DNA from: a virus
IMG/VR virus record: IMGVR_UViG_3300032308_000708
Location: 1-40,864 of that record
Length of the DNA: 40,864 nucleotides
Strand: one strand, 5' to 3'
In this document: positions 5,081-17,635 of the stretch, piece after piece
Position numbering within the stretch: position 1 is the first letter of the stretch
Layout: each line of letters starts with the position of its first letter
The notes under the pieces: generated by a model
The model's input: the letters and a program-made list of their open reading frames with translations, nothing else
Told to the model about the DNA's origin: nothing
Databases searched by the model: none
Made by a program: the position numbers and the translations under genes

Positions 5081-6001
5081 ATGATCAAGGGTTATAAAGG
5101 CCGAATTATAACAGCAAATGCTAATTTAGTTTCAACTACTACTAGTAGTGCTAGTGGTATTTGGCAGCCTGAAGAACAAATGCAAGCAACTAGGGCCGGT
5201 ACTTGGCCGGGAGGTTCCGCCTCAGCGTTAACTATTAGTTATCTTGTAGTTGCTGGAGGAGGGTCTGGAGGGACATGTTCCTATGCTGGAGGTGGTGGCG
5301 CCGGAGGAGTTTTAACAGGCAGTAATTTTACCGCAACTTTTGGTTGTTGTATACCAATTCAAGTTGGTGGAGGAGGAACAACAGGAAATCCACGAGGTAT
5401 TTCTGGAACAAACTCTTGTTTGGGTTGCTTAATATCCTGCGGAGGAGGAGGTGGAGGCACATATGTTCCTAGTCAACCTGCTTTTGCTACTGGACTTCCA
5501 GGTGGTTCTGGCGGCGGCGGAGGATATTGCGCCGGCGCGGCAGCTGCATGTATATGTGGCGGTACAGGTATTGCAGGTCAAGGATTTTGCGGTGGGTCTG
5601 GTGACAACTGGGGTGGAGGATATGGCGGCGGAGGCGGCGGTGCTGGAGGTATCGGCACTAATGCAATCAATCCTTCTACCTCTGGTTGCGGTGGACCCGG
5701 TATTTGTTCGTCTATTATGGGCGGCGCAACTATTTGTTGCGTGGGTGGCGGCGGCGGCGGAACATATACTTCATTAGGAGGTCTTGGCGGTGGTGGCGCT
5801 GCACCTGGTGGTGTTGGAACAGCATTTACTGGAGGTGGAGGAGGTGCAAGTGGTGCAGGAACAGGCGGTTCTGGTGTAGTTATTATTGCGTATCCTAGTG
5901 CGTGTCCTTATGCAACCTCAACAACCGGTTCTCCGACTTGCTGTGATAATGGTTCCTGTAAAGTTTACAGATGGATATCTTCTGGTTCTATAACATTCTA
6001 A
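5081..6001 (+). CDS. Glycine/cysteine-rich adhesin protein B
   Basis: A 306-residue paralogue of the preceding adhesin. Its N-terminus (GYKGRIITANAN, then SGIWQPEEQMQA, then GTWPGG) aligns by eye with protein A. From about residue 50 it has the classic glycine-rich phage domain that opens SYLVVAGGGSGG and runs as polyglycine patches to GGSGVVIIAYPS. Polyglycine sandwiches of this kind form fibre tips in T4-like adhesins (known from gp38-type proteins). Unusually, it carries about 18 cysteines, several adjacent (GCC, ICC, TCC), where relatives normally have Ser, Thr or Gly. An AGG lies six bases before the ATG. Probably a receptor-binding component. Confidence 0.75.
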   Translation: MIKGYKGRIITANANLVSTTTSSASGIWQPEEQMQATRAGTWPGGSASALTISYLVVAGGGSGGTCSYAGGGGAGGVLTGSNFTATFGCCIPIQVGGGGTTGNPRGISGTNSCLGCLISCGGGGGGTYVPSQPAFATGLPGGSGGGGGYCAGAAAACICGGTGIAGQGFCGGSGDNWGGGYGGGGGGAGGIGTNAINPSTSGCGGPGICSSIMGGATICCVGGGGGGTYTSLGGLGGGGAAPGGVGTAFTGGGGGASGAGTGGSGVVIIAYPSACPYATSTTGSPTCCDNGSCKVYRWISSGSITF

Positions 6002-6419: not shown

Positions 6420-7202
6420 ATGGCAAAAATTAATTTTCCAGCATCACCTACAAATGGTCAGCCATATTCTATTAATGGTGTTTATTACTATTATGACTCC
6501 ACTATCGGTGCTTGGGTCACATCATTAATTGCTAGACCTCTTGATGCTAGTTTAAATACACAAATTAATTTTAATGATAGCGGTTATTCCAACGGTTCTA
6601 ATGGAATGACCTTTAGTAAGACTGCTAATACTACTTACTTTAATAATGTTGCTATAACTCAAAATGTTTCTACAACTTATATTTCAGCAACCAGAATTAC
6701 ATTAACAGAAAATGTTTCTGCTAGTTATTTTGTTGGTAATGGTTCTTTACTTACCGGTATAACAACCACCACCATAACAAATGATACCACAGGAGCAGGG
6801 ACTTATTATCCAATATTCACCACTACTTCAAGTGGTCAATTGGCAATTGCTAATACATCCACAACCAAATTGTATTTTGTTCCTAGCACAGGAACATTAT
6901 CTGCTACCACTTTCAATTCATTATCGGATAGACAATTCAAAGATAACATTGAAGATTTTGATGGCGAAGGTTTGCTTGATAAGATAGATCCAGTTACATT
7001 TACATGGAAGGAAACCAATGCTAGATCATATGGTGTTGTCGCGCAAGATTTGGAAAGACATATTCCAGAATTAGTTTCAACTAATGATCAAGGCATTAAA
7101 TCAGTCTCTTATGATCCTATGATTGCTATTCTTATAGATGTGATTAAAAAACAACAAAAACAAATTTCCGAAATAAAAAAGGTACTAAATAGTAGGAAAT
7201 AA
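6420..7202 (+). CDS. Tail fibre with C-terminal S74 intramolecular chaperone
   Basis: A 260-residue fibre protein. Residues 1-35 are a short beta segment (FPASPTNGQPYSINGVYYYYD) typical of fibre N-termini, and residues 60-165 are Thr/Ser/Asn-rich fibre shaft. Residues 167-258 are an S74 / endosialidase-type chaperone domain. It starts at LSDRQFKDNI, with Ser169-Asp170 and Lys174 matching the autocleavage dyad of the family, continues through YGVVAQDLERHIPELV and SYDPMIAILID, and ends in a coiled helix. In this family the domain trimerises the fibre and then cuts itself off before the serine, so the mature shaft would be about 168 residues. The small size suggests a short side fibre. A late-promoter-like box sits 22 bases upstream. 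Confidence 0.85.
   Translation: MAKINFPASPTNGQPYSINGVYYYYDSTIGAWVTSLIARPLDASLNTQINFNDSGYSNGSNGMTFSKTANTTYFNNVAITQNVSTTYISATRITLTENVSASYFVGNGSLLTGITTTTITNDTTGAGTYYPIFTTTSSGQLAIANTSTTKLYFVPSTGTLSATTFNSLSDRQFKDNIEDFDGEGLLDKIDPVTFTWKETNARSYGVVAQDLERHIPELVSTNDQGIKSVSYDPMIAILIDVIKKQQKQISEIKKVLNSRK
7184..7191 (+). promoter_or_regulatory. Late promoter-like box before the cysteine-rich fibre
   Basis: ACTAAATA near the end of the S74 fibre gene, 41 bases before the ATG of the cysteine-rich protein; TAAATA core intact. Confidence 0.45.
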
Positions 7203-7232: not shown

Positions 7233-9173
7233 ATGGCAATCAAGATTCAAGGTACAACAATTATTGATGATGCTGCAAATGTGTCTAATATTTGTATGGT
7301 TACTACAGGAACAATTTGTTCCAATACTTATTATGGATGCGGAAGTGGATTGTGCGGTGTTCCAGTAACAAAAGTATCATCCTATAGCTGTAAATGCTGT
7401 TTAACTAATTCATCATGTAATAATATTACAATCGATCTTTGTTGCGGAAACTATTATCAAATAAGATCATTAGGCCCAGTAAACGTTTCTTGTGTTTGTA
7501 ATATAAATTATTGTAATAAACTCATCATAGAGACTTTGGGTAATTCTCTATCATCTAAATTAACAATGCCATCCTGTTTTGCATACGCATGTTCATCGGC
7601 AGATCAGTGTAAAGTTACCACAACTTTCGAAGATGTTGGAAACAATTGTTGGATAGGAAATTATTATTCCCAACCTAGATTACAAGGAGATAATATTTAT
7701 AATAGTTGGCAATGTTGTGATATTAATACTATTACCACTAGACTCGGTTGTATAAGATGTGTTTCATCCTCACCATCTGTTATTTTTTGTAATTTTGAGA
7801 TAGAGCGAGCTATGTGTTTATGCGGATCAAATAGTCCTTATGCTCTCAGTAATTTTGCTATATGCGATGCCCAGAAATCAAAAGGTCAACTATCAGGTTT
7901 CTGTTATAATAATAATTTATATGGAATTGGCATTGGCCAGGTATATGATGCTGGACAGGGCGGAGCATATACTTATATGAGATTTTGGAGAGTAAATCCT
8001 GCGACAGGAGATTTGGATTGTTTTAGGTGTTTTGCTTTAGGTTATTATGATAGCACTTATGGTGCTAATTTAAGTCCAGGTGTAATTATTTCAGTATCTC
8101 CCGAGAATGATTTTTTTGTGACAGCAAGAAGGGTATGCTGGTTTCCATCTCAAAGTTGTGGATCTAGCTGTATAGTAGTCTATTCTTTATCCGACGCTGT
8201 TAATAATGGAACTTTAGTACCTTTACAATACATTTGTGCATGTGGAGATACCGGCGGCGCCCGAGGTATAAACTTATACTGTCAATCCAGTGCCATTCCT
8301 TTTCATAATATGGACGTTTGCTGTTCTCCAGCAAAATTAATATATAAGAATTGTTGTAATTGTTACGGAACTTGTGGATTATATGTCAGAAAATTTTGGA
8401 AAGGAACTGCACCTTGTTATGTATGTAGTTCTGATTGTTGTTTGTTCTGTGCTTCAACTATTTCTGATCCTGGATTGTTGACTCAAGAAGGAGACTATCT
8501 TCTACACTCTTGCTGTTGTTGTGTTGACACTAGCTGTTGTCATTTGTGTGTTAGAGTTTCTTATGACAGTTTGAATAATTGTTGCACCAATACATCATTC
8601 AGCGAAGTAGTAAATCATAGTGTGTTGAATGTGGTATGTAATCGAGGTGTTTTCATAACAGATTGTCGTTTTTGTCATATAGGTCACATTACTTTGCAAG
8701 TGCAATGTTTTGCCGATACTTCTACTGCTTGTATAAAAACAAGACTTGCAAATGGAACTTATATCAGTTCGTATAGTTGTAGTGGATTAATGTGCAATTG
8801 TTCATATGGGCCAGTTTGGACACCCGGAGGTTGCACTTGTGGATGTTTTAGTCGCACGCCTAATTTTCTTGGCAGTTGCACTGCCGAACCATTCTTATAC
8901 ATCGATTTACAAAATAACTGTATGTATTCTGCTCTTAAGGCTAATGGTAGCGATTCTCTTAGTCAGACAGGATCTCGTTATTGCACAAATACTTGTACCT
9001 GGGTTTTCGGAACAGGATGTTGCTATGCTTGTTCAAATTCTGGATATTGTGCTTATGGTGTTGAAACAACGATATCTACTTTATTGTATAGAAACAAAGC
9101 ACCAGATGGTTCTATAATAGATGTTTTAGGAGGACCTCATGAACTTTCTAACACTAAACTATTTTCTTGTTAA
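7233..9173 (+). CDS. Exceptionally cysteine-rich fibre-like protein
   Basis: A 646-residue protein with a fibre N-terminus (MAIKIQGTTIIDDAANVSNI, then YYGCGSGLCGV, where relatives usually have G-x-GSxLTGV). The rest is a beta-rich, low-charge sequence with about 74 cysteines (around 11%) spread along the whole length. Many are adjacent (CC in more than ten places, one run of four Cys) or in CxC. Apart from cysteine, the sequence looks like an ordinary folded beta protein with N, S, Y and V, not a zinc-finger or metallothionein pattern. No signal peptide or membrane segment is seen. The start has a strong AAGGAG seven bases upstream, and an ACTAAATA box precedes it. Probably a virion adhesin; its fold and the role of the cysteines are unknown. 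Confidence 0.7.
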   Translation: MAIKIQGTTIIDDAANVSNICMVTTGTICSNTYYGCGSGLCGVPVTKVSSYSCKCCLTNSSCNNITIDLCCGNYYQIRSLGPVNVSCVCNINYCNKLIIETLGNSLSSKLTMPSCFAYACSSADQCKVTTTFEDVGNNCWIGNYYSQPRLQGDNIYNSWQCCDINTITTRLGCIRCVSSSPSVIFCNFEIERAMCLCGSNSPYALSNFAICDAQKSKGQLSGFCYNNNLYGIGIGQVYDAGQGGAYTYMRFWRVNPATGDLDCFRCFALGYYDSTYGANLSPGVIISVSPENDFFVTARRVCWFPSQSCGSSCIVVYSLSDAVNNGTLVPLQYICACGDTGGARGINLYCQSSAIPFHNMDVCCSPAKLIYKNCCNCYGTCGLYVRKFWKGTAPCYVCSSDCCLFCASTISDPGLLTQEGDYLLHSCCCCVDTSCCHLCVRVSYDSLNNCCTNTSFSEVVNHSVLNVVCNRGVFITDCRFCHIGHITLQVQCFADTSTACIKTRLANGTYISSYSCSGLMCNCSYGPVWTPGGCTCGCFSRTPNFLGSCTAEPFLYIDLQNNCMYSALKANGSDSLSQTGSRYCTNTCTWVFGTGCCYACSNSGYCAYGVETTISTLLYRNKAPDGSIIDVLGGPHELSNTKLFSC

Positions 9174-9183
9174 GGATTGAACC

Positions 9184-9696
9184 ATGACTTTTTTAATAAA
9201 AACAGATTTATTTGCAGTATTTGACAACCAAAATAATTATACTGGAAGTGTATTTACCGATATCCAGATGAAAGTTTTGTTTGATGGTAATTCTGAAGAT
9301 TTCTACCAACATGAAAATAATAAATATTATAGAGTATATAATGAAAATTTAGAAGAATCAGAAAAAAAATATACTAAATGGTATACAAATACACCAAATA
9401 ATTATTTTTTGAATGATGATAAAACATTTGCTATTTGTCCTTTAGAAACAGGCGATTTCACAACAGAACAATTGGAATTAGTGTTTAAAGATAATTGGTC
9501 GAAAATAAGAATAGTAAGAAATAAACTATTGTCAGAATCAGATGCGGAAAGTTTTATCATGTTACCCGATGTGTGGAATGAAAAATCTGAACAATGGAAA
9601 ACACAATGGTTAAATTATAGAAAAAAGTTGAGAGACCTTCCTGAAAATTTCGTAAATCCTTTTGAAATTATATGGCCAGAGAAGCCAACTATATAA
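9184..9696 (+). CDS. Phage tail assembly chaperone-like protein
   Basis: A 170-residue protein whose C-terminal third has the pattern W-x-x-QWLNYRKKLRDLPENF, then NPFEIIWPEKP. This matches the family of phage tail-assembly chaperone proteins (Phage_tail_APC type, consensus YR-x-x-LRDLP ... WP-x-KP). The N-terminal part is not recognised. Such genes normally lie directly after the fibre they help fold, which here would be the cysteine-rich fibre-like gene ending 10 bases upstream. Family assignment rests on the C-terminal motif; the partner is inferred from position. Confidence 0.65.
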   Translation: MTFLIKTDLFAVFDNQNNYTGSVFTDIQMKVLFDGNSEDFYQHENNKYYRVYNENLEESEKKYTKWYTNTPNNYFLNDDKTFAICPLETGDFTTEQLELVFKDNWSKIRIVRNKLLSESDAESFIMLPDVWNEKSEQWKTQWLNYRKKLRDLPENFVNPFEIIWPEKPTI

Positions 9697-9744: not shown

Positions 9745-10680
9745 ATGCGTAAAGTCTTTTCAATTGATGGTGGCGCTGGCAGAGTCATCGCCGCCATCCC
9801 TGCCTTAGAAAAATATGTAAGAAACAATCCTAAAGAAGATGTAAAGATCCTAATTTATGGTTGGGACAATCTTCTTTGGGGTAATACTTTACTACAGGAC
9901 ATCACCTTCAATCCCGATACCAAGGGTATTTGGGAACTATTTTTGAAGGATGCTGATGTTATTGTTACTCCAGAACCTTATCGTGTTCCTGGTTATTACA
10001 ACCAGAAACTATCTCTTGCAGAAGCATTTGATAAAGAGATTAATAACACAGACGATCATTCTGATCTAACCATTCCAAGACTTTACACAAACAAGGCAGA
10101 AGAAAAGAATGCCGCCAATCTTATTGCTGATGTTAAGGCACAGCAAAAGAAAGACAAGACTATTGTTATCCAGCCATATGGTCGTTCTGCAAGAGTTGAT
10201 CGCAATGATATCATTGATGATAGTTCCCGTGGTTTAGACTCCACAGCATATCTCTCCTTGGTTAAGAAACTCTCCACTAAGTATAATCTCATTTTATTTG
10301 CGGAAAAGCAGTTTCATCAACCACAAGATACTTACACATTTAAACTAGAGGCTGATCTAAGGTTCTGGTCTGCCATCATTGAGGCGGCCGATTATTTTGT
10401 TGGTTGTGATTCTGTTGGTCAGCATATGGCTCGGGTCTTTGATAAACCAGGTACAGTTTTCATTGGTTCAACATATCCTATTAATGTAAGTTATCCAGAT
10501 TGGTTTAATATCATTGAGAAGGAAGGTGTTGCTAAGAAGTATTCGCCTATTCGTGTTTGCGGCCTTGATGCACATCTGGCAGACCGTTATAACGATAAAT
10601 GCATGGATTATTCAGAAGAAGAGGTCCATGAAATCTTTATGAAAATTGTTAAAGATATTGAAAATAAGGTGGGCAAATAA
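9745..10680 (+). CDS. GT9-like (heptosyltransferase-fold) glycosyltransferase
   Basis: A 311-residue protein resembling the ADP-heptose:LPS heptosyltransferase / GT9 group. The N-terminal half starts MRKVFSIDGGAGRVIAAIPAL, like the GG(I/L)GDxxxAxPA opening of GT9 enzymes. The C-terminal half has a nucleotide-sugar-binding segment, VIQPYGRS near residue 141, and the family-like DxxxxHxA segment FVGCDSVGQHMA at 218-229 followed by TVFIGSTYP. It would be cytoplasmic and transfer an activated sugar. The ADP-heptose genes on the facing strand make heptose a plausible donor, but substrate and acceptor are inferred. GGAG lies seven bases before the ATG. The next gene starts one base after its stop. 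Confidence 0.6.
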   Translation: MRKVFSIDGGAGRVIAAIPALEKYVRNNPKEDVKILIYGWDNLLWGNTLLQDITFNPDTKGIWELFLKDADVIVTPEPYRVPGYYNQKLSLAEAFDKEINNTDDHSDLTIPRLYTNKAEEKNAANLIADVKAQQKKDKTIVIQPYGRSARVDRNDIIDDSSRGLDSTAYLSLVKKLSTKYNLILFAEKQFHQPQDTYTFKLEADLRFWSAIIEAADYFVGCDSVGQHMARVFDKPGTVFIGSTYPINVSYPDWFNIIEKEGVAKKYSPIRVCGLDAHLADRYNDKCMDYSEEEVHEIFMKIVKDIENKVGK

Positions 10681-10681
10681 T

Positions 10682-12415
10682 ATGACATATAATGTTTTAG
10701 GTATTAATCCAGGACACAATGGTTCTGCTGCACTTACTGTTGATGGAGAACTTGTTTATTACCTTGAAGAAGAAAGATTAACAAGACAAAAATATGACGG
10801 TAATCCATTTAGAACGATTTTAGATATTCTATCTAAGTGGCATGTTGATGAAGTTGTCGTCGGTGGTACAAATTGTGCTAAACCTGAACTATCATGGACA
10901 AGAGAAGAACCTAATTACGCTCTTGTTAGAAAATTTAATAAGAATGTAAAGTTCACAGACCTGAGAGACGAACACCATCTATCTCATTCACTGACCGCCT
11001 TTTATAATTCAGGATTTGATAAGGCAATTGTTGTTGTAGCAGATGGTGCAGGATCCTTTAAAGTGGAGCAAATAGAACCAGATAACTTTGCTGAAGGTTA
11101 TGAGGCCGAATCAGTTTGGGTAATGGAATATCCTTTATCAGCAAAGTTACTGTATAAGTCTTATGGAGTACCAAGAGTTAAGAATGATGTTTGGTCTTTC
11201 AAATTTCCACATCATAATATTTTAGATTTTGATGATGCTATCACAGTAACCAAAACATATGAAGCGGCAACTCAGTATCTAGGATTTGGATTTATAGAAG
11301 CAGGAAAAACTATGGGATTATCTTCCTATGGTAAAGAAGATCCTAGACTACCGGAGTTATATAAAGGTAATAGAGGAAGCAGAGATGTGTTTTTAACATT
11401 CTTGCCTGCTGGTGCTATCATTGATGAAAAGAGAAATGAAATCTTTAGGAGAGATTATAATCCTTTAGAATGGCATAAAGATCCAACCAAACTATCCGAT
11501 ATTGAAAAGAATTTAGCTTGGAAAATTCAGAATGAAACACAAAAGATTATTGCTAGGTATATTGAATTTTCTGTAGAGGCGACAGGAATAAAAAATGTTT
11601 GTGTCGTTGGTGGATATGGATTAAATTGTGTGGCCAATTACTATTTCAAGAAAGTTTTACCAGATATTAATATCTACAACGAACCTGTTTCACATGATGG
11701 AGGAACAGCAATTGGACTAGCCAAGTTTGGATGGTATAATAAATTACGAGAAAAAGGTGAAGAGGCAAAAATACATCCAATTAAAACATTATATCTTGGA
11801 CCAAAATATGATCCTAAAGATATTGAAAAAACTCTAGAAAGTCATTCGGAAAAAATTAAAACAAAAAAAGTTACTTATGATGATATTGCCAAACTAATAT
11901 CAGAAAAGAATATTGTTGCAATGTACCAGGGACAATCCGAAGCGGGCCCAAGAGCATTAGGTAACAGATCCATTCTATATGATCCAACTGATCCTGATGG
12001 TAAAGATTTTGTTAATACTGTAAAAGGTAGAGAATGGTTTAGACCATTTGCTGGTACCGTTCTACAGGAAGATGCAAATGATTGGTTTGATATGGCGGGA
12101 ATGGACGAAAGTCCGTTTATGATGTATGCTGTGAATGTTGCTGCGGATAAGATTGATCAGATTCCATCAATCTGTCATGTTGATGATACTTGCCGTATTC
12201 AGACAGTCACGGAAGATCAGAATAAACATTATTATAATCTAATCAAGTCATTCAAGGGTATTACCGGTGTACCAATTCTATTCAACACATCTTTTAACCT
12301 TGCTGGTGACCCACTGGTAGAAACGGTAGAAGATGCTTTAGACACCCTCTACCGTTCTAAAATGAATTACTTATATCTCCCAGAATTGGGACTATTGGTC
12401 GAGAAATCAGTCTAA
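10682..12415 (+). CDS. NodU/CmcH-family carbamoyltransferase
   Basis: A 577-residue O-carbamoyltransferase, which moves carbamoyl from carbamoyl phosphate to a hydroxyl, usually on a sugar. Start chosen at the ATG at 10682 (MTYNVLGINPGHNGSAAL); an open frame extends 12 codons upstream, but that would overlap the previous gene and lacks the family start. The N-terminal ASKHA-fold domain shows GINPGHNGSA (7-16), YYLEEERLTR (26-35), the metal-site HHLSH (98-102) and VVGGYGLNC (308-316). The C-terminal domain from about 405 shows QSEAGPRALGNRSIL (418-432), FRPFAGTVL and PILFNTSFN (531-539). Both domains are complete. It is probably cotranscribed with the glycosyltransferase. Its last nine bases overlap convergently with the end of gmhB. 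Acceptor unknown. Confidence 0.85.
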   Translation: MTYNVLGINPGHNGSAALTVDGELVYYLEEERLTRQKYDGNPFRTILDILSKWHVDEVVVGGTNCAKPELSWTREEPNYALVRKFNKNVKFTDLRDEHHLSHSLTAFYNSGFDKAIVVVADGAGSFKVEQIEPDNFAEGYEAESVWVMEYPLSAKLLYKSYGVPRVKNDVWSFKFPHHNILDFDDAITVTKTYEAATQYLGFGFIEAGKTMGLSSYGKEDPRLPELYKGNRGSRDVFLTFLPAGAIIDEKRNEIFRRDYNPLEWHKDPTKLSDIEKNLAWKIQNETQKIIARYIEFSVEATGIKNVCVVGGYGLNCVANYYFKKVLPDINIYNEPVSHDGGTAIGLAKFGWYNKLREKGEEAKIHPIKTLYLGPKYDPKDIEKTLESHSEKIKTKKVTYDDIAKLISEKNIVAMYQGQSEAGPRALGNRSILYDPTDPDGKDFVNTVKGREWFRPFAGTVLQEDANDWFDMAGMDESPFMMYAVNVAADKIDQIPSICHVDDTCRIQTVTEDQNKHYYNLIKSFKGITGVPILFNTSFNLAGDPLVETVEDALDTLYRSKMNYLYLPELGLLVEKSV

Positions 12416-13084
12416 AGACTCAGCAAACTCTAAAAGATTGTTAAACACCTTTGTCGCCTTTTTAAGGTCCTTATTGGCAAAGGTGTTTAACTTTTCTTCC
12501 GTTTCATCACCATGGCCTGTCTTAACAAGAATAGGTTTAGCACCAATATTAGATGCTGCCTTTAGATCACTCATTTTATCACCTACATACCAACCTTCAG
12601 AAAACTTAATACCTCCTGGTAGTTCTTTTTCTGCCCGTCTAAACATACCAATATTAGGCTTGGCATATTCATCATCTTTAAGATTTGTTGTAGAATAGTA
12701 TAAACCGTCAATACTAAAGATACCTGCCTGTCCAAAGATTTGCATCAGATATTGATGAATCGCATCTACCTGTTGGATTGTCTGTAGGCCTTTATGAATG
12801 CCTCCTTGATTGGTTAGAATAACAATCTTATATCCTTTGAGGCGCATCATACGAATTGCTTCTAATGAACCTGGAATAGGATGAACTTGACTAGAATCTG
12901 TGATATAGTTACCCATATCTTGAATGATAGTACCGTCTCTATCTAATCCAATAACCGGCTTTGGAAAGAACTGAGGCCACTCACTAGGATTAAACTGACC
13001 CTGTGGTTGAACTGGCATTCCAGGTTGCTGCATTTGTTGCTGAGGTGGTAATTCACTCACAGGTACACTTGTAAATCGTCCCAT
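12407..13084 (-). CDS. gmhB: D-glycero-D-manno-heptose 1,7-bisphosphate phosphatase-like (HAD)
   Basis: A 225-residue HAD-superfamily phosphatase, the GmhB step of ADP-heptose synthesis. The catalytic loop is GLDRDGTI (Asp48 nucleophile, Asp50 acid/base), motif II is ILTNQGGI (Thr91), then KPNIGMFRR (Lys143), and the metal site is YVGDKMSDLKAA (Asp169, Asp173). Two oddities: residues 1-40 are a Pro/Gln-rich extension absent from typical GmhB, and the Cys/His zinc loop of E. coli GmhB is missing. A related HAD histidinol-phosphate phosphatase role is possible from sequence alone; the HldE and HldD neighbours favour GmhB. Its start overlaps the hldD stop by one base. A perfect 14-base inverted repeat lies inside the 3' end. 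Confidence 0.8.
   Translation of the reverse strand: MGRFTSVPVSELPPQQQMQQPGMPVQPQGQFNPSEWPQFFPKPVIGLDRDGTIIQDMGNYITDSSQVHPIPGSLEAIRMMRLKGYKIVILTNQGGIHKGLQTIQQVDAIHQYLMQIFGQAGIFSIDGLYYSTTNLKDDEYAKPNIGMFRRAEKELPGGIKFSEGWYVGDKMSDLKAASNIGAKPILVKTGHGDETEEKLNTFANKDLKKATKVFNNLLEFAESLD
12440..12491. terminator. Perfect 14-bp inverted repeat, possible bidirectional terminator
   Basis: GTTAAACACCTTTG (12440-12453) and its exact complement CAAAGGTGTTTAAC (12478-12491) flank a 24-base loop that itself contains a small CCTT/AAGG stem. On the + strand the right arm is followed by TTTTCTT, so it could end the carbamoyltransferase transcript 25-80 bases past its stop. On the - strand it lies in the last codons of gmhB and is followed by a weaker T-rich run. 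The repeat is directly visible; the terminator role is inferred. Confidence 0.5.
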
Positions 13085-13872
13085 TATAAATCTCCTAATA
13101 CATATTCTTCTATTGATTTAAACTTGTGTTGTATGAAATGATTTCTAGCACAGGTATAATACTGATACTTTCCTTCTAGATGTTTTGGAAAGGGAATGTA
13201 TTCTATAGTAGCATTATATTTATCTGCTATAATTTCAGCAACTCTTTCAAAAGACCTTGCCACACCTGTACCAACATCATAGATACCTGATGGTTTATTC
13301 ATTAACATACAGTCAATAATATCTTCAACCCATATAAAGTCTCTCATGTATGCTTTAGAGTTTTCAAACAGTTTAATTACACCGTTTTCTTTTGACTGTT
13401 TAGTAAACATGTGAACCGGACTGGCCTGATTACCTTTATGATCTTCATGTTTACCAAAAACATTAAAGAATCTATACCCCTGTATTCTTACAAACTTGTC
13501 TATGTTATCTTCAACCCATTTATCAATAGTGGCCTTAGACATAGCATAATAATTTAATGGGTTGATACATCTATTATAGTTTGGTGATGTTCCATACACG
13601 GACGCGGACGAGGCATACTTAACAGGAATACCAAACTCAATTGCTATTTTAAATAGTTCTATAGAGTATTGAATATTATATGTATGAATACTATCAAGGT
13701 CGGTACAAGTGGTATCAGAGATAGCACCAATATGCCAAATCTCATCTATCTCATCCCAAGGTATTGTAAGAAGGTCTTTCAAACAGGTATCTTTTTCAGA
13801 TAGGTATAGATTATCAAATCTATTGGCAATGTTTTGACCTATGAATCCTTTATGTCCTGTAACTAAAATCAT
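13084..13872 (-). CDS. hldD: ADP-glyceromanno-heptose 6-epimerase-like SDR
   Basis: A 262-residue NAD(P)-dependent extended short-chain dehydrogenase/epimerase. The nucleotide site is VTGHKGFIG (4-12); the catalytic set is ASSASVYG (87-94) and Y109-x-x-x-K113 in NYYAMSK. HldD-specific marks are GAISDTT (49-55), RFFNVFGKHEDHKG (134-147), MRDFIWVED (176-184) and PFPKHLEGKYQYYT (227-240), matching the heptose epimerase more closely than GalE or RmlB. E. coli HldD is about 310 residues, so this is a compact form. In the pathway it converts ADP-D,D-heptose to ADP-L,D-heptose. The ATG overlaps the cupin stop by four bases. Confidence 0.82.
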   Translation of the reverse strand: MILVTGHKGFIGQNIANRFDNLYLSEKDTCLKDLLTIPWDEIDEIWHIGAISDTTCTDLDSIHTYNIQYSIELFKIAIEFGIPVKYASSASVYGTSPNYNRCINPLNYYAMSKATIDKWVEDNIDKFVRIQGYRFFNVFGKHEDHKGNQASPVHMFTKQSKENGVIKLFENSKAYMRDFIWVEDIIDCMLMNKPSGIYDVGTGVARSFERVAEIIADKYNATIEYIPFPKHLEGKYQYYTCARNHFIQHKFKSIEEYVLGDL

Positions 13873-14216
13873 TGTCCGTCTCCTGGCATAACTCTATAAC
13901 TATCATTATCATAATGTGTGGTTGATGCTTCTATAAGAACCGAATTGTCCTCTAGAGCCTCAATCTGATGTGGTTTACCAGGTTCATTTACCCAAGTATC
14001 ACCTTCTCTCAAAATAACATCATGTATGGAGGCATCGTTTGTTTCTATCCAACGAATCTTAAACATACCTTTTTGAACATAAAATGTTTCATGTTTCTTC
14101 ATATGGAAATGCATTGACCCTTTTGAACCGGCCTTGTCGTGTATAAGGAGTTTACCACAATACATTTCATTATTGGCAAAGATGACCTCTCTACCCCATT
14201 TCTTTTCAACAATCAT
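13869..14216 (-). CDS. Single-domain cupin, sugar-isomerase-like
   Basis: A 115-residue cupin. The metal-site motif is GSMHFHMKKHETFYVQKG, with His36, His38, His42/Glu43 and then His83 in PGKPHQIEAL. The opening WGREVIF and the SMHFHxxKxE core resemble the cupin half of type II phosphomannose isomerases and stand-alone sugar-phosphate cupins. It sits inside the heptose operon, overlapping the end of hldE by 11 bases and the start of hldD by four, so it probably acts on a sugar in the same pathway. Whether it isomerises a heptose, edits a nucleotide sugar or only binds cannot be read from the sequence. Confidence 0.7.
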   Translation of the reverse strand: MIVEKKWGREVIFANNEMYCGKLLIHDKAGSKGSMHFHMKKHETFYVQKGMFKIRWIETNDASIHDVILREGDTWVNEPGKPHQIEALEDNSVLIEASTTHYDNDSYRVMPGDGQ

Positions 14217-15381
14217 TAATCTTCTCCACCATTTTGGTCGTTGAATAACCTTCTAAAAATGGAATTAGTTCAACATTTGCGATATCATTACCAACTACTT
14301 CTTCCTTGGTTTTGTAATCACCACCTTTTGTAATTATATCAGGTTGTATTCGTTTAATCAAGTCATAAGGTGTATCTTCATCAAAAATAATAACCTCATC
14401 TACACATTTGAGACTCTCTAAAACTCTTTTACGGTCATCTTGATTATTATAAGGTTTGTTTTCACCTTTAAGTCTTTTAACGGAATCATCAGAGTTTAGT
14501 CCAATAATAAGGTAATCACCAAGTTCTTTTGACTTTTCAAGATATGTAACATGGCCTCGGTGAATAAAGTCAAAACATCCGTTAGTAAAAATTACTTTCT
14601 TTTCTACAGAACGAATATCTTCTTGTGTTAATGTATATGTTCCAAACTTACAAACGGATAAAGATGCCAACTTATTAGCCAACTCACAAGCATTATAGAT
14701 TGATTTACCTTTGGCGAGATAATAAGTCATAGCAGCAATAAACACATCACCAGCACCAGTTACATCGGAGACCTGCGTAGAATGACCTGGAATGTTCTGT
14801 ATACCATCTTCCGATACAATAGTAACACCTTCACCACCTTTTGTTATAACAAGTGTTCCTATATTATAAAACTTCCTTGTTTCTTGATACCCACCTTCAA
14901 TCATAGAAAACCTATGATATTCGGATTCATTAAGTTTTATAATATCAGCACCTTCATAGTTAACCAAACTTTTCTTTGGATCAACTATAACAATCTTACC
15001 TTGTTCTTTCAGAGAATGAACTAACTGCTGACTTTTAGAGAGAACACCTTTATTATAATCGGAGAGAATGACATATTTGGTTTCTTCAGGAAATTCTATT
15101 TGAGAAATATCAGCGGTGCTAGTCTTATCTTCATCCACACGGAACATAATATGGTTATCACACACATATCTTTTCTTGATACTATATTCTTTATTATCAA
15201 AGAAATAATCAACATAAGCACCTAAGGCCATTAGGTTGTTATTAACATTAGAGGCACCACCGGCCTTACATTCTTCTCGGGTAATATCAAAGATAGGAAG
15301 AGGAGACTCTGGAGAGAACCGATTCATTTTTCCATAAATATAGATGTCAGTTATATGATCACCAATAAGACCGATTTTCAT
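14206..15381 (-). CDS. hldE: Bifunctional heptose 7-phosphate kinase / heptose 1-phosphate adenylyltransferase
   Basis: A 391-residue two-domain enzyme. Residues 1-250 are a PfkB/ribokinase-type kinase: GDHITDIYIYG (7-17), the substrate-side CKAGGASNVNNNL (38-50), and the anion-hole/catalytic motif DVTGAGDVF (206-214, Asp212 base). Residues 262-391 are a cytidylyltransferase-like nucleotidyltransferase: TNGCFDFIHRGHV (266-278, with the HxGH at 274-277), RVLESLKCVDEV, IITKGGDY and a FLEGYSTT end (375-382). This order is specific to HldE (RfaE), which phosphorylates heptose 7-phosphate and adenylates heptose 1-phosphate. E. coli HldE is about 477 residues, so the kinase half is trimmed, but the motifs are intact. 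GGAG lies seven bases before the ATG. First gene of the - strand operon. Confidence 0.9.
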   Translation of the reverse strand: MKIGLIGDHITDIYIYGKMNRFSPESPLPIFDITREECKAGGASNVNNNLMALGAYVDYFFDNKEYSIKKRYVCDNHIMFRVDEDKTSTADISQIEFPEETKYVILSDYNKGVLSKSQQLVHSLKEQGKIVIVDPKKSLVNYEGADIIKLNESEYHRFSMIEGGYQETRKFYNIGTLVITKGGEGVTIVSEDGIQNIPGHSTQVSDVTGAGDVFIAAMTYYLAKGKSIYNACELANKLASLSVCKFGTYTLTQEDIRSVEKKVIFTNGCFDFIHRGHVTYLEKSKELGDYLIIGLNSDDSVKRLKGENKPYNNQDDRKRVLESLKCVDEVIIFDEDTPYDLIKRIQPDIITKGGDYKTKEEVVGNDIANVELIPFLEGYSTTKMVEKINDC

Positions 15382-16193: not shown

Positions 16194-17084
16194 ATGCCCG
16201 TCAACGGATACTTTAACAACTTTCCAGGTGAAAATAGGTTCAATAACGAACATCGGTTGATGGAAGATGTTATTGTAGAATCCATTCAAATCATGGGCCA
16301 TAATGTATGGTATATTCCTAGAGAATCATTTGATAATATGGATATGATTTTCGGAGAGGCCACCAAAGTTATATTCAATCGCGCCTATATGGTTGAGGCC
16401 TATATTGCTAATGTTGAAGGTTTTGAAGGTGACGGAGATTTCTTTTCTAAGTTTGGTTTAGAAATTAGAGATAGTTCTAACTTTATTCTTTCACGCAGAT
16501 CATTTTCTAAGATTATTCCATCTACATTAAGAGAACGACCTCAAGAAGGAGACCTTGTTTGGGTTCCTCTTATGCATCGTATGTTTGAGATTAAGTTTAT
16601 TGAAAAGAAGTTGATGTTTTATTCCGTAGGTAATAGACAACCATTCGTCTATGAAATGCGTTGTGAGGACTTCCGCTTCTCAGAAGAAATCATGGATACT
16701 GGTGTTGAGGATATTGATCAGATCGGTGAAGATAACGCCTATACAATGAAACTCAATCTGGCAACTACAGGTGTAAGATCATTTATTGATAACGAAATTG
16801 TATTCCAAAGTCCTGATGGAACATGGGCCAATAATACAGCAAAAGCCACTATTAGTGAATGGTATGCTGCCAATGGCACTATGCTTATTCACGACATTGC
16901 AGGAACATTTGCTGCTAACACTAATTTATATGGTAATACATCAATGGCTAGATTTAATACAATTTCAGTTGGTGATGAAAAACTAGACCTTGTTCCGAAT
17001 GACTTCTTTAATAATGATGACTTTAATACAGATACGACACTCATTTTAGATTTGAGTGAAATTAATCCGTTTGGAAAACCTTAA
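16194..17084 (+). CDS. gp14: Neck protein gp14
   Basis: A 296-residue protein matching T4-like gp14, the partner of gp13 in the neck (head-to-tail connector). The conserved opening is NGYFNN, EHRLMEDVIVESIQIMGHN, WYIPRES, then FGEATKVIFNRAYMVEAYI, RRSFSK and RPQEGDLVWVPLM. The C-terminal part (about residue 190 onward) is beta-rich with Asn/Thr stretches. It ends in TAATG, and the ATG of the next ORF (the homing endonuclease) lies in this overlap. By comparison with relatives, this ATG position is where gp15 would be expected to start. Confidence 0.9.
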   Translation: MPVNGYFNNFPGENRFNNEHRLMEDVIVESIQIMGHNVWYIPRESFDNMDMIFGEATKVIFNRAYMVEAYIANVEGFEGDGDFFSKFGLEIRDSSNFILSRRSFSKIIPSTLRERPQEGDLVWVPLMHRMFEIKFIEKKLMFYSVGNRQPFVYEMRCEDFRFSEEIMDTGVEDIDQIGEDNAYTMKLNLATTGVRSFIDNEIVFQSPDGTWANNTAKATISEWYAANGTMLIHDIAGTFAANTNLYGNTSMARFNTISVGDEKLDLVPNDFFNNDDFNTDTTLILDLSEINPFGKP

Positions 17085-17635
17085 TGCGAAATAGATGTTA
17101 CAGAAAAATATACGAACGATATCATGGTTCTATTCCTAAGGACAATAAAGGTCGTTCATTTGAAATTCATCATATTGACGGAAATCATGATAATAATGAT
17201 ATAACTAATTTGATGGCTGTTAGTATCGAGGAACATTATAAAATACATAAAGAACAAGGAGACCTTGGTGCATGTTGGTTAATGTCTCCGAGATTAGAAC
17301 TTGATGCACAGGAAATGTCTCTTTTAGGGAGAGAAATGGCTCTGAGATCCTTACCAAGATCAGAAGATTGGAAAAGAAAGCAAAGAGAATCGCAAAAGAA
17401 ACGCATCAGAAAACCACATTCCGAAGAAACCAAACTAAAAATTAGTAAGGCAAATTTAGGTAAAATATCTCCAAATAAAGGTATACCTATGAGTGAGGAA
17501 AATAAACAAAAGAGAAGAAAACCTAAACTCAATACAGAAAATTATAGAAAACCTAAATCAGAAGAACATAAACAAAAAATGAGAGAGTCTGCTAAATTAG
17601 CATGGCAAAAGAGGAGAGACTCAAATTCTAGGTAA
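17084..17635 (+). CDS. HNH homing endonuclease inserted between gp14 and gp15
   Basis: A 183-residue free-standing homing endonuclease. The HNH nuclease is at residues 26-55: EIHHIDGNHDNNDITNLMAVS with His29/His30, Asn38 and Asn42, and then His51. Residues 105-175 are Lys/Arg-rich and hold three repeats of the S-E-E-x-K-x-K-[IM] type that resemble NUMOD3 DNA-binding modules, a combination common in phage homing endonucleases. Such enzymes cut a relative lacking the insert and spread into it. It starts in the TAATG of gp14 without a strong ribosome-binding site. Its last 11 bases overlap the likely start of gp15. No room for a group I intron core is seen outside the ORF, so it is treated as an intronless insertion. 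Confidence 0.88.
   Translation: MRNRCYRKIYERYHGSIPKDNKGRSFEIHHIDGNHDNNDITNLMAVSIEEHYKIHKEQGDLGACWLMSPRLELDAQEMSLLGREMALRSLPRSEDWKRKQRESQKKRIRKPHSEETKLKISKANLGKISPNKGIPMSEENKQKRRKPKLNTENYRKPKSEEHKQKMRESAKLAWQKRRDSNSR
17610..17616 (+). promoter_or_regulatory. Ribosome-binding site that decides the gp15 start
   Basis: AGAGGAG inside the 3' end of the homing endonuclease gene, eight bases before an ATT codon at 17625 in the gp15 frame. The next ATG (17688) has only a weak GGTAG upstream, so this site points to initiation at or near 17625. Confidence 0.5.

Follow-up and report, generated by a model that had tools for sequence, protein, structure and literature searches.

Cysteine-rich fibres of aquatic viruses lie beside a gene for a GT9-fold glycosyltransferase, suggesting that fibre cysteines are handles for sugars

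Aquatic viruses of bacteria carry a widespread and previously undescribed class of cysteine-rich fibres, almost always encoded beside the same glycosyltransferase gene. As these fibres are of unrelated folds and are tied to one gene for a GT9-fold enzyme, the association suggests that their cysteines are handles for sugars, and we favour, with modest confidence, the reading that the phage S-glycosylates its fibre cysteines, probably with heptose, by means of this enzyme. The evidence comprises the Cys-rich fibres, their linkage to the enzyme gene, the predicted fold of the enzyme, the neighbouring heptose genes, and a change at the catalytic position.

The window, that is, the whole stretch of DNA analysed, is a linear virus record of 40,864 bases and, judged by its protein sequences, belongs to a T4-like (Kyanoviridae-type) aquatic myovirus. 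It encodes gp23, neck and other T4-type structural homologues, with a capsid protein (MCP) that shares 64% identity with its counterpart in Pelagibacter phage Mosig and a gp13 with 46-50% identity to those of Melnitz and Mosig. A neck protein of the window has a 100% identical counterpart on a 6.7-kb IMG/VR contig (913-1659), and a near-identical virus thus exists elsewhere. Directly after the neck-protein genes of the window lies a gene for a homing-type HNH endonuclease with a NUMOD3 motif (17084-17635). The features on which the analysis centres are as follows:

5081-6001, + strand: second Cys-enriched protein with a glycine-rich domain (PF21722); 306 aa, 18 Cys (5.9%)
6420-7202, + strand: fibre protein with an S74 chaperone domain (PF13884, E = 7e-11), without Cys
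7233-9173, + strand: Cys-rich fibre-like protein; 646 aa, 74 Cys, uninterrupted ORF (translation)
9184-9696, + strand: tail-fibre assembly chaperone (Phage_tail_APC; PF16778, E = 8e-13; phrog_4912)
9745-10680, + strand: GT9-fold glycosyltransferase, phrog_8954 ("unknown function"; PHROG E = 3.5e-87)
10646-12415, + strand: Nol/NodU-like carbamoyltransferase (PHROG 2.5e-158; PF16861/PF02543)
12407-13084, - strand: GmhB-like heptose bisphosphate phosphatase (NCBIfam PRK08942, E = 6.7e-36, below the equivalog cut-off)
13084-13872, - strand: HldD-like ADP-glyceromanno-heptose 6-epimerase (TIGR02197, E = 2.6e-63, below cut-off)
13869-14216, - strand: cassette cupin (Pfam Cupin_2; WbuC-like)
14206-15381, - strand: HldE-like heptose-7-phosphate kinase / heptose-1-phosphate adenylyltransferase (PRK11316, E = 2.5e-89, TIGR02198 and TIGR02199, below cut-offs)

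An earlier note, made from the sequence of the window, had described the product of 7233-9173 as a fibre-like protein of 646 residues with about 74 cysteines, or about 11%. Translation gives exactly 74 cysteines (74/646, 11.5%), making Cys the commonest residue of the protein, and the finer details of that description likewise hold: there are many CC pairs, a single CCCC (residues 427-430), both Cys codons (59 TGT and 15 TGC), and an N-terminal fibre motif that reads GSGLCG. The even spread of Cys that had been reported is roughly right, in that the longest Cys-free gap is 40 residues with 40 expected, while CC steps number 12 versus 8.4 ± 2.6 in shuffles. Its assignment as a fibre agrees with the N-terminal motif and with the S74 fibre gene before and the fibre-assembly chaperone gene after it. 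The N-terminal MAIKIQGTTIIDD motif contains no Cys, the first being residue 21, and likeness to other fibres is confined to residues 1-45. This N-terminal motif also occurs in a fibre of more than 2,000 aa in Marine virus AG-345-L05 (MH319754.1, 6001-12108), which has 3.3% Cys (68) and YadA-head-like repeats.

The author of the earlier note had known no described family of this kind, and the body of the protein indeed has no match in PHROGs, Pfam, NCBIfam or the PDB, nor a relative in phage records even at E<=10. No homologue of the protein was found among IMG/VR viral contigs, close relatives included, and AlphaFold2 run on the single sequence without an alignment gave a pLDDT of 31, too low for a usable model. 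A DNA pattern search for GSGLCG-type motifs returned a single, unrelated match, a CC-Gly pattern search returned mainly ordinary glycine-rich proteins with few Cys, and the tail-fibre assembly chaperone used as bait led to unrelated phages without Cys-rich fibres. The search for Cys-rich homologues that had been proposed thus yielded no relative of the protein body, but the Cys-rich property itself recurs in related loci. An assembly artefact was rejected, as the trait is also present in the sequenced isolates P-SSM2, S-SSM7, S-CAM1, S-CAM3 and Sf-FS3.

The glycosyltransferase gene is the second gene downstream of the Cys-rich fibre ORF, and relatives of its product in IMG/VR define a set of 80 loci, in which ORFs of at least 200 aa were counted. 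Most of these loci have a Cys-rich fibre ORF just upstream of the enzyme gene, in many unrelated architectures. ORFs with at least 7% Cys accounted for 51 of the 236 within 5 kb upstream of the gene, for 0 of the 97 farther upstream, and for 0 of the 490 downstream or on the other strand (51/236 versus 0/587; Fisher p = 3e-30, which overstates independence as the loci are related). Among loci whose enzyme has at least about 59% identity to the window's and which include an upstream ORF of at least 200 aa, a fibre ORF with at least 6.9% Cys was found in 43 of 43. A neighbour with at least 4% Cys occurs in 52 of the 71 loci that have at least 2.5 kb upstream, and the 19 without one belong to divergent enzyme clades, mostly at 45-56% identity. 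Some divergent loci encode a small CxxCxxCC-like protein upstream of the enzyme gene (L181, 8068-8532; L184, 8124-8579; L199, 9627-10004; L214, 9568-9996; L215, 5297-5719), which we take to resemble YkgJ-type proteins and which, from its motif, could possibly be a partner in Cys handling. RCC1-like repeat proteins (WGWGxN-type) with roughly 2-6% Cys lie near other divergent enzyme genes (L198, L200, L207, L209, L210 and L211).

The association extends to cultured phages. A tblastn search located the glycosyltransferase gene in 55 phage records. The enzymes of P-SSM2, S-SSM7, S-CAM1, S-CAM3 and Sf-FS3 share only about 38% identity with that of the window, yet the proteins encoded just upstream of them contain 8.0-11.6% Cys (PSSM2_304 and PSSM2_306 in P-SSM2). 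In Vibrio phage SBP1 and Aeromonas phage HJ05, very remote homologues adjoin proteins in which Cys is locally clustered. Six metagenome-assembled "bacterial or archaeal" contigs also carry the enzyme gene, with neighbours of 8-12% Cys in each; these are probably viral contigs in bins, and contigs with the phage cassette had been binned as Woesearchaeota, Gammaproteobacteria, Euryarchaeota and Neomarinimicrobiota. The Cys-rich proteins fall into about 35 separate clusters with Cys content as their sole common trait, and as the Cys-rich fibres are otherwise of unrelated folds, it is Cys itself that is selected.

Loci without the enzyme gene served as controls. Across 80 gp13 loci that lack it, not all of which contain fibre genes, no Cys-rich ORF was found on the fibre strand, and the single Cys-rich ORF among 647 lies on the minus strand. 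In eight T4-like isolates without the gene (Syn9, P-RSM1, ACG-2014f, HTVC008M, S-RIM14, ACG-2014d, Mosig and Melnitz), Cys reached no more than 3.1% in the sequence retrieved on either side of and including the fibre genes. Within the window, all remaining ORFs contain 0-1.9% Cys with the exception of 5081-6001, and the Cys content of 7233-9173 thus exceeds chance by far; the claim that such a content is abnormal for a phage fibre is supported. The product of 5081-6001 was absent from the earlier note; its cysteines align mostly with T, N, S, Y and A, and seldom with G, of Cys-poor relatives (eight sequences).

A reverse test started from one fibre N-terminal family, comparing its Cys-rich members (at least 6% Cys, with enough downstream sequence) with its Cys-poor members (less than 3%). 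This revealed the enzyme gene in 19 of 19 Cys-rich and 0 of 25 Cys-poor members (p = 7e-13), a result that bears on the proposal that the glycosyltransferase and heptose genes alter the host LPS to exclude other phages and adjoin Cys-rich fibres only through a shared host-recognition region. Published work has interpreted genes of this kind as LPS genes in cyanophages (PMC3037559) and as modifiers of the O-chain in pelagimyophages (PMC7029224), but a shared location does not by itself link Cys content with the enzyme, and marine Synechococcus LPS contains no heptose (PMC4515613), which makes the cassette hard to explain as LPS core synthesis in that host. We consider alteration of host LPS, with a merely positional link to the fibres, very unlikely.

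To return to the enzyme, an AlphaFold2 model of the 9745-10680 product built with 60 homologues has a pLDDT of 94.2, and the PDB structures that match it best are WaaF, TibC, a Veillonella GT9 enzyme, and WaaC (Foldseek, 1e-9 for 1PSW and 2e-9 for TibC; VIA Z, 23.6 for 3TOV, 21.0 for 1PSW and 19 for WaaC, with the next different families at about 12). The GT-B fold of GT9 heptosyltransferases is predicted with high confidence from this model. Profile matches were fainter: PF01075 was detected in 51 of 60 members (best 3e-6), with no hit for the window's member at E<=1, while TIGR02201 (heptosyltransferase III) matched all 60 weakly (0.0015 for the window's member, far below cut-off). A profile search of the PDB with one alignment of the enzyme (A2) returned nothing relevant, and a search with another (A3) returned WaaF at 0.0063.

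The N-terminus of the enzyme aligns without gaps to E. coli WaaC, WaaF, WaaQ and WaaU (WaaC, SMGDVLHTLPAL; phage enzyme, GAGRVIAAIPAL). Asp13, invariant in the E. coli set, is replaced by an Arg13 that is invariant in all 60 members and in all 23 aligned phage members, such that the catalytic Asp of the GT9 N-terminal G-D motif is absent. As read from sequence and fold alignments, Arg13 stands at the GT9 catalytic-Asp position, and we call the enzyme GT9-fold rather than a member of GT9. On the donor side, a local hhalign match of 85 columns pairs WaaC K192 with R162, a conservative change, D261 with D222, and H266 with H227.

Thiols are stronger nucleophiles than hydroxyls and need less activation, so the change from D13 to R13 would be compatible with a Cys acceptor. 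In TibC, Asp-110, at the position equivalent to Asp13 of WaaC, is the catalytic base, and Ser is the target (PMC4358343). Were the phage enzyme to modify Ser and Thr of the fibre as TibC does, leaving the cysteines to serve otherwise in cross-linking or metal binding, acceptors would be plentiful, as Ser and Thr still make up 18% of the window protein; however, the catalytic base has given way to Arg, and the presence of the enzyme tracks Cys rather than Ser/Thr, which is higher in the few Cys-poor relatives compared (21-31%) than in Cys-rich ones (13-20%). O-glycosylation of the fibre therefore seems to us quite unlikely.

The pattern of Cys was analysed across a set of 71 proteins with 4,384 Cys. 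Neither a sequon nor a fixed metal-ligand motif was found around Cys in this set; Pro is disfavoured at positions +/-1, and CC pairs are above expectation (670 versus 432). In conservation, Cys ranks first or second among the residues of the set, at 57-81% according to how far the proteins have diverged, and residues of many kinds take its place; where homologues share 60-75% identity, 81% of Cys are kept and about 19% differ. Counts per protein are even in 41 and odd in 30, without an even-number rule. From these alignments it seems that Cys density is kept rather than exact position, a pattern that suits numerous separate acceptor sites better than a disulfide network or metal site of fixed layout.

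The same data weigh on the proposals of the earlier note, derived from the fibre protein by itself, in which the cysteines cross-link, bind metal or take part in thiol chemistry; such roles are possible, but leave the linkage, the incomplete conservation and the absence of an even-number rule unexplained. In one version, the thiols are kept reduced inside the cell and pair up once lysis exposes them to oxygenated water, to give a rigid, protease-resistant fibre, the enzyme acting elsewhere or shielding thiols until then. The high rank of Cys in conservation and the excess of CC would suit such armour, but vicinal CC and CCCC runs seldom form simple disulfides. Disulfide networks are reported in the tail of Agrobacterium phage Milano (PMC10811340), whereas the near-equal even and odd counts, the difference in about 19% of Cys between homologues of 60-75% identity, the absence of a visible thiol oxidase from the window cassette, and the linkage to a GT9-fold gene all speak against pairing here, and we consider it unlikely. 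Binding of metal ions, or reaction with thiols or metals on the host surface, could account for clusters such as CCCC and CxC, but the set shows no fixed ligand motif, the cassette contains no metal-handling gene, and the link to the glycosyltransferase is again left unexplained; we regard this explanation as highly improbable.

If the fibre cysteines are acceptors, the sugar would probably be heptose. Heptose genes are present in the window and in 36 of the 52 loci with enough downstream sequence, while the other 16 have none within reach. The GmhB-, HldD- and HldE-like proteins are heptose-type by best match rather than certified equivalogs because all score below NCBIfam cut-offs, and in S-SM2 and P-TIM68 heptose genes form part of ordinary glycan clusters that lack the phrog_8954 enzyme. 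As heptose genes occur without the enzyme and are not seen within reach in 16 of 52 loci, we are less sure of the sugar than of the linkage. The carbamoyltransferase gene, whose ORF is listed from a TTG with the likely ATG near 10682, adjoins the glycosyltransferase gene in 64 of 82 loci, and its product is possibly a sugar modifier. The cupin gene is found downstream of the glycosyltransferase gene in 36 of 52 loci. Its counterpart in P-SSM2 (PSSM2_312, 16355-16711 of the locus) and equivalents in cyanophages are annotated as "cysteine dioxygenase"; no NCBIfam family supports this name for the P-SSM2 cupin, and it may be wrong.

Taken together, we envisage that the phage would make a fibre in which roughly every tenth residue is Cys, its cysteines being acceptor sites; that the adjacent HldE-, GmhB- and HldD-like genes would supply ADP-heptose; and that the GT9-fold enzyme would transfer the sugar, probably heptose, to many fibre thiols in the host cytoplasm; the sugar may in addition be modified by the adjacent carbamoyltransferase. 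The lack of a sequon, the 19 divergent loci without a Cys-enriched neighbour and the 16 loci with no heptose gene in reach weigh against this reading. The outcome would be a densely S-glycosylated adhesin like that of the TibC/TibA pair, with Cys in place of Ser, and the modification may aid host binding or solubility, or keep thiols from cross-linking.

Several known systems resemble parts of this arrangement. In the bacterial autotransporter heptosyltransferase (BAHT) pairs TibC/TibA and AAH/AIDA-I, as here, a dedicated GT9-like heptosyltransferase is encoded with a many-acceptor adhesin, and the phage enzyme gene adjoins adhesin-type (fibre) genes upstream in the window and in related loci. 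TibC, the protein-modifying structure closest to the phage model, hyper-heptosylates autotransporter adhesins, and BAHT enzymes modify Ser, use a catalytic Asp, and have an N-terminal beta-barrel and a four-Cys iron finger (PMC4358343). In contrast, the phage enzyme, with 311 aa and 3 Cys in total, begins at the catalytic domain (aligned to TibC 97-396) and lacks the Asp, barrel and finger, while its partner protein is Cys-rich. WaaC, WaaF and WaaQ share with it the GT9 fold and the donor-site K/R, D and H positions, but act on LPS and have an invariant G-D motif where the phage family has an invariant G-R. SunS, the S-glycosyltransferase of the glycocin sublancin, is a GT2 enzyme of a fold and family other than GT9, and modifies a short bacteriocin rather than a structural protein of 600-1400 aa. 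Enzymatic S-glycosylation of Cys is nonetheless established by such enzymes (PMC6405829, PMC12457901), and the phage enzyme would share this chemistry. Milano (PMC10811340) resembles the present viruses in having tail protein cysteines with an extracellular purpose, but there they form a disulfide network in the contractile tail, whereas the enrichment described here concerns fibre proteins and tracks a glycosyltransferase gene.

In the literature retrieved by our search, which had most subscription journals outside its reach, no description of Cys-rich phage fibres linked to a glycosyltransferase was found. An adhesin with a dedicated heptosyltransferase has a precedent in TibC/TibA; what is new is its occurrence in phages, the abundance of Cys and the change at the catalytic position. 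A broader proposal, which we advance tentatively and rate just short of an even chance, is that this is a new modification system in which fibres with at least 10% Cys, of many unrelated folds, are coated with S-linked, possibly carbamoylated heptose by a GT9-derived enzyme whose hydroxyl-activating Asp became Arg for a thiol acceptor, which would amount to S-glycosylation of large structural proteins on a mass scale, widespread in marine and fresh waters.

What unites these fibres as a class is chemistry and not fold. They occur in isolates that have been studied for a long time, such as P-SSM2, S-SSM7 and S-CAM1, and the "hypothetical" family phrog_8954, together with genes labelled as LPS synthesis, gains a testable job. 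If the S-glycosylation reading is true, modified peptides would escape standard proteomics, dense Cys glycosylation of viral adhesins would bring a rare modification to a new scale, and it would help to explain why marine phages carry heptose genes despite cyanobacterial hosts whose LPS contains no heptose.
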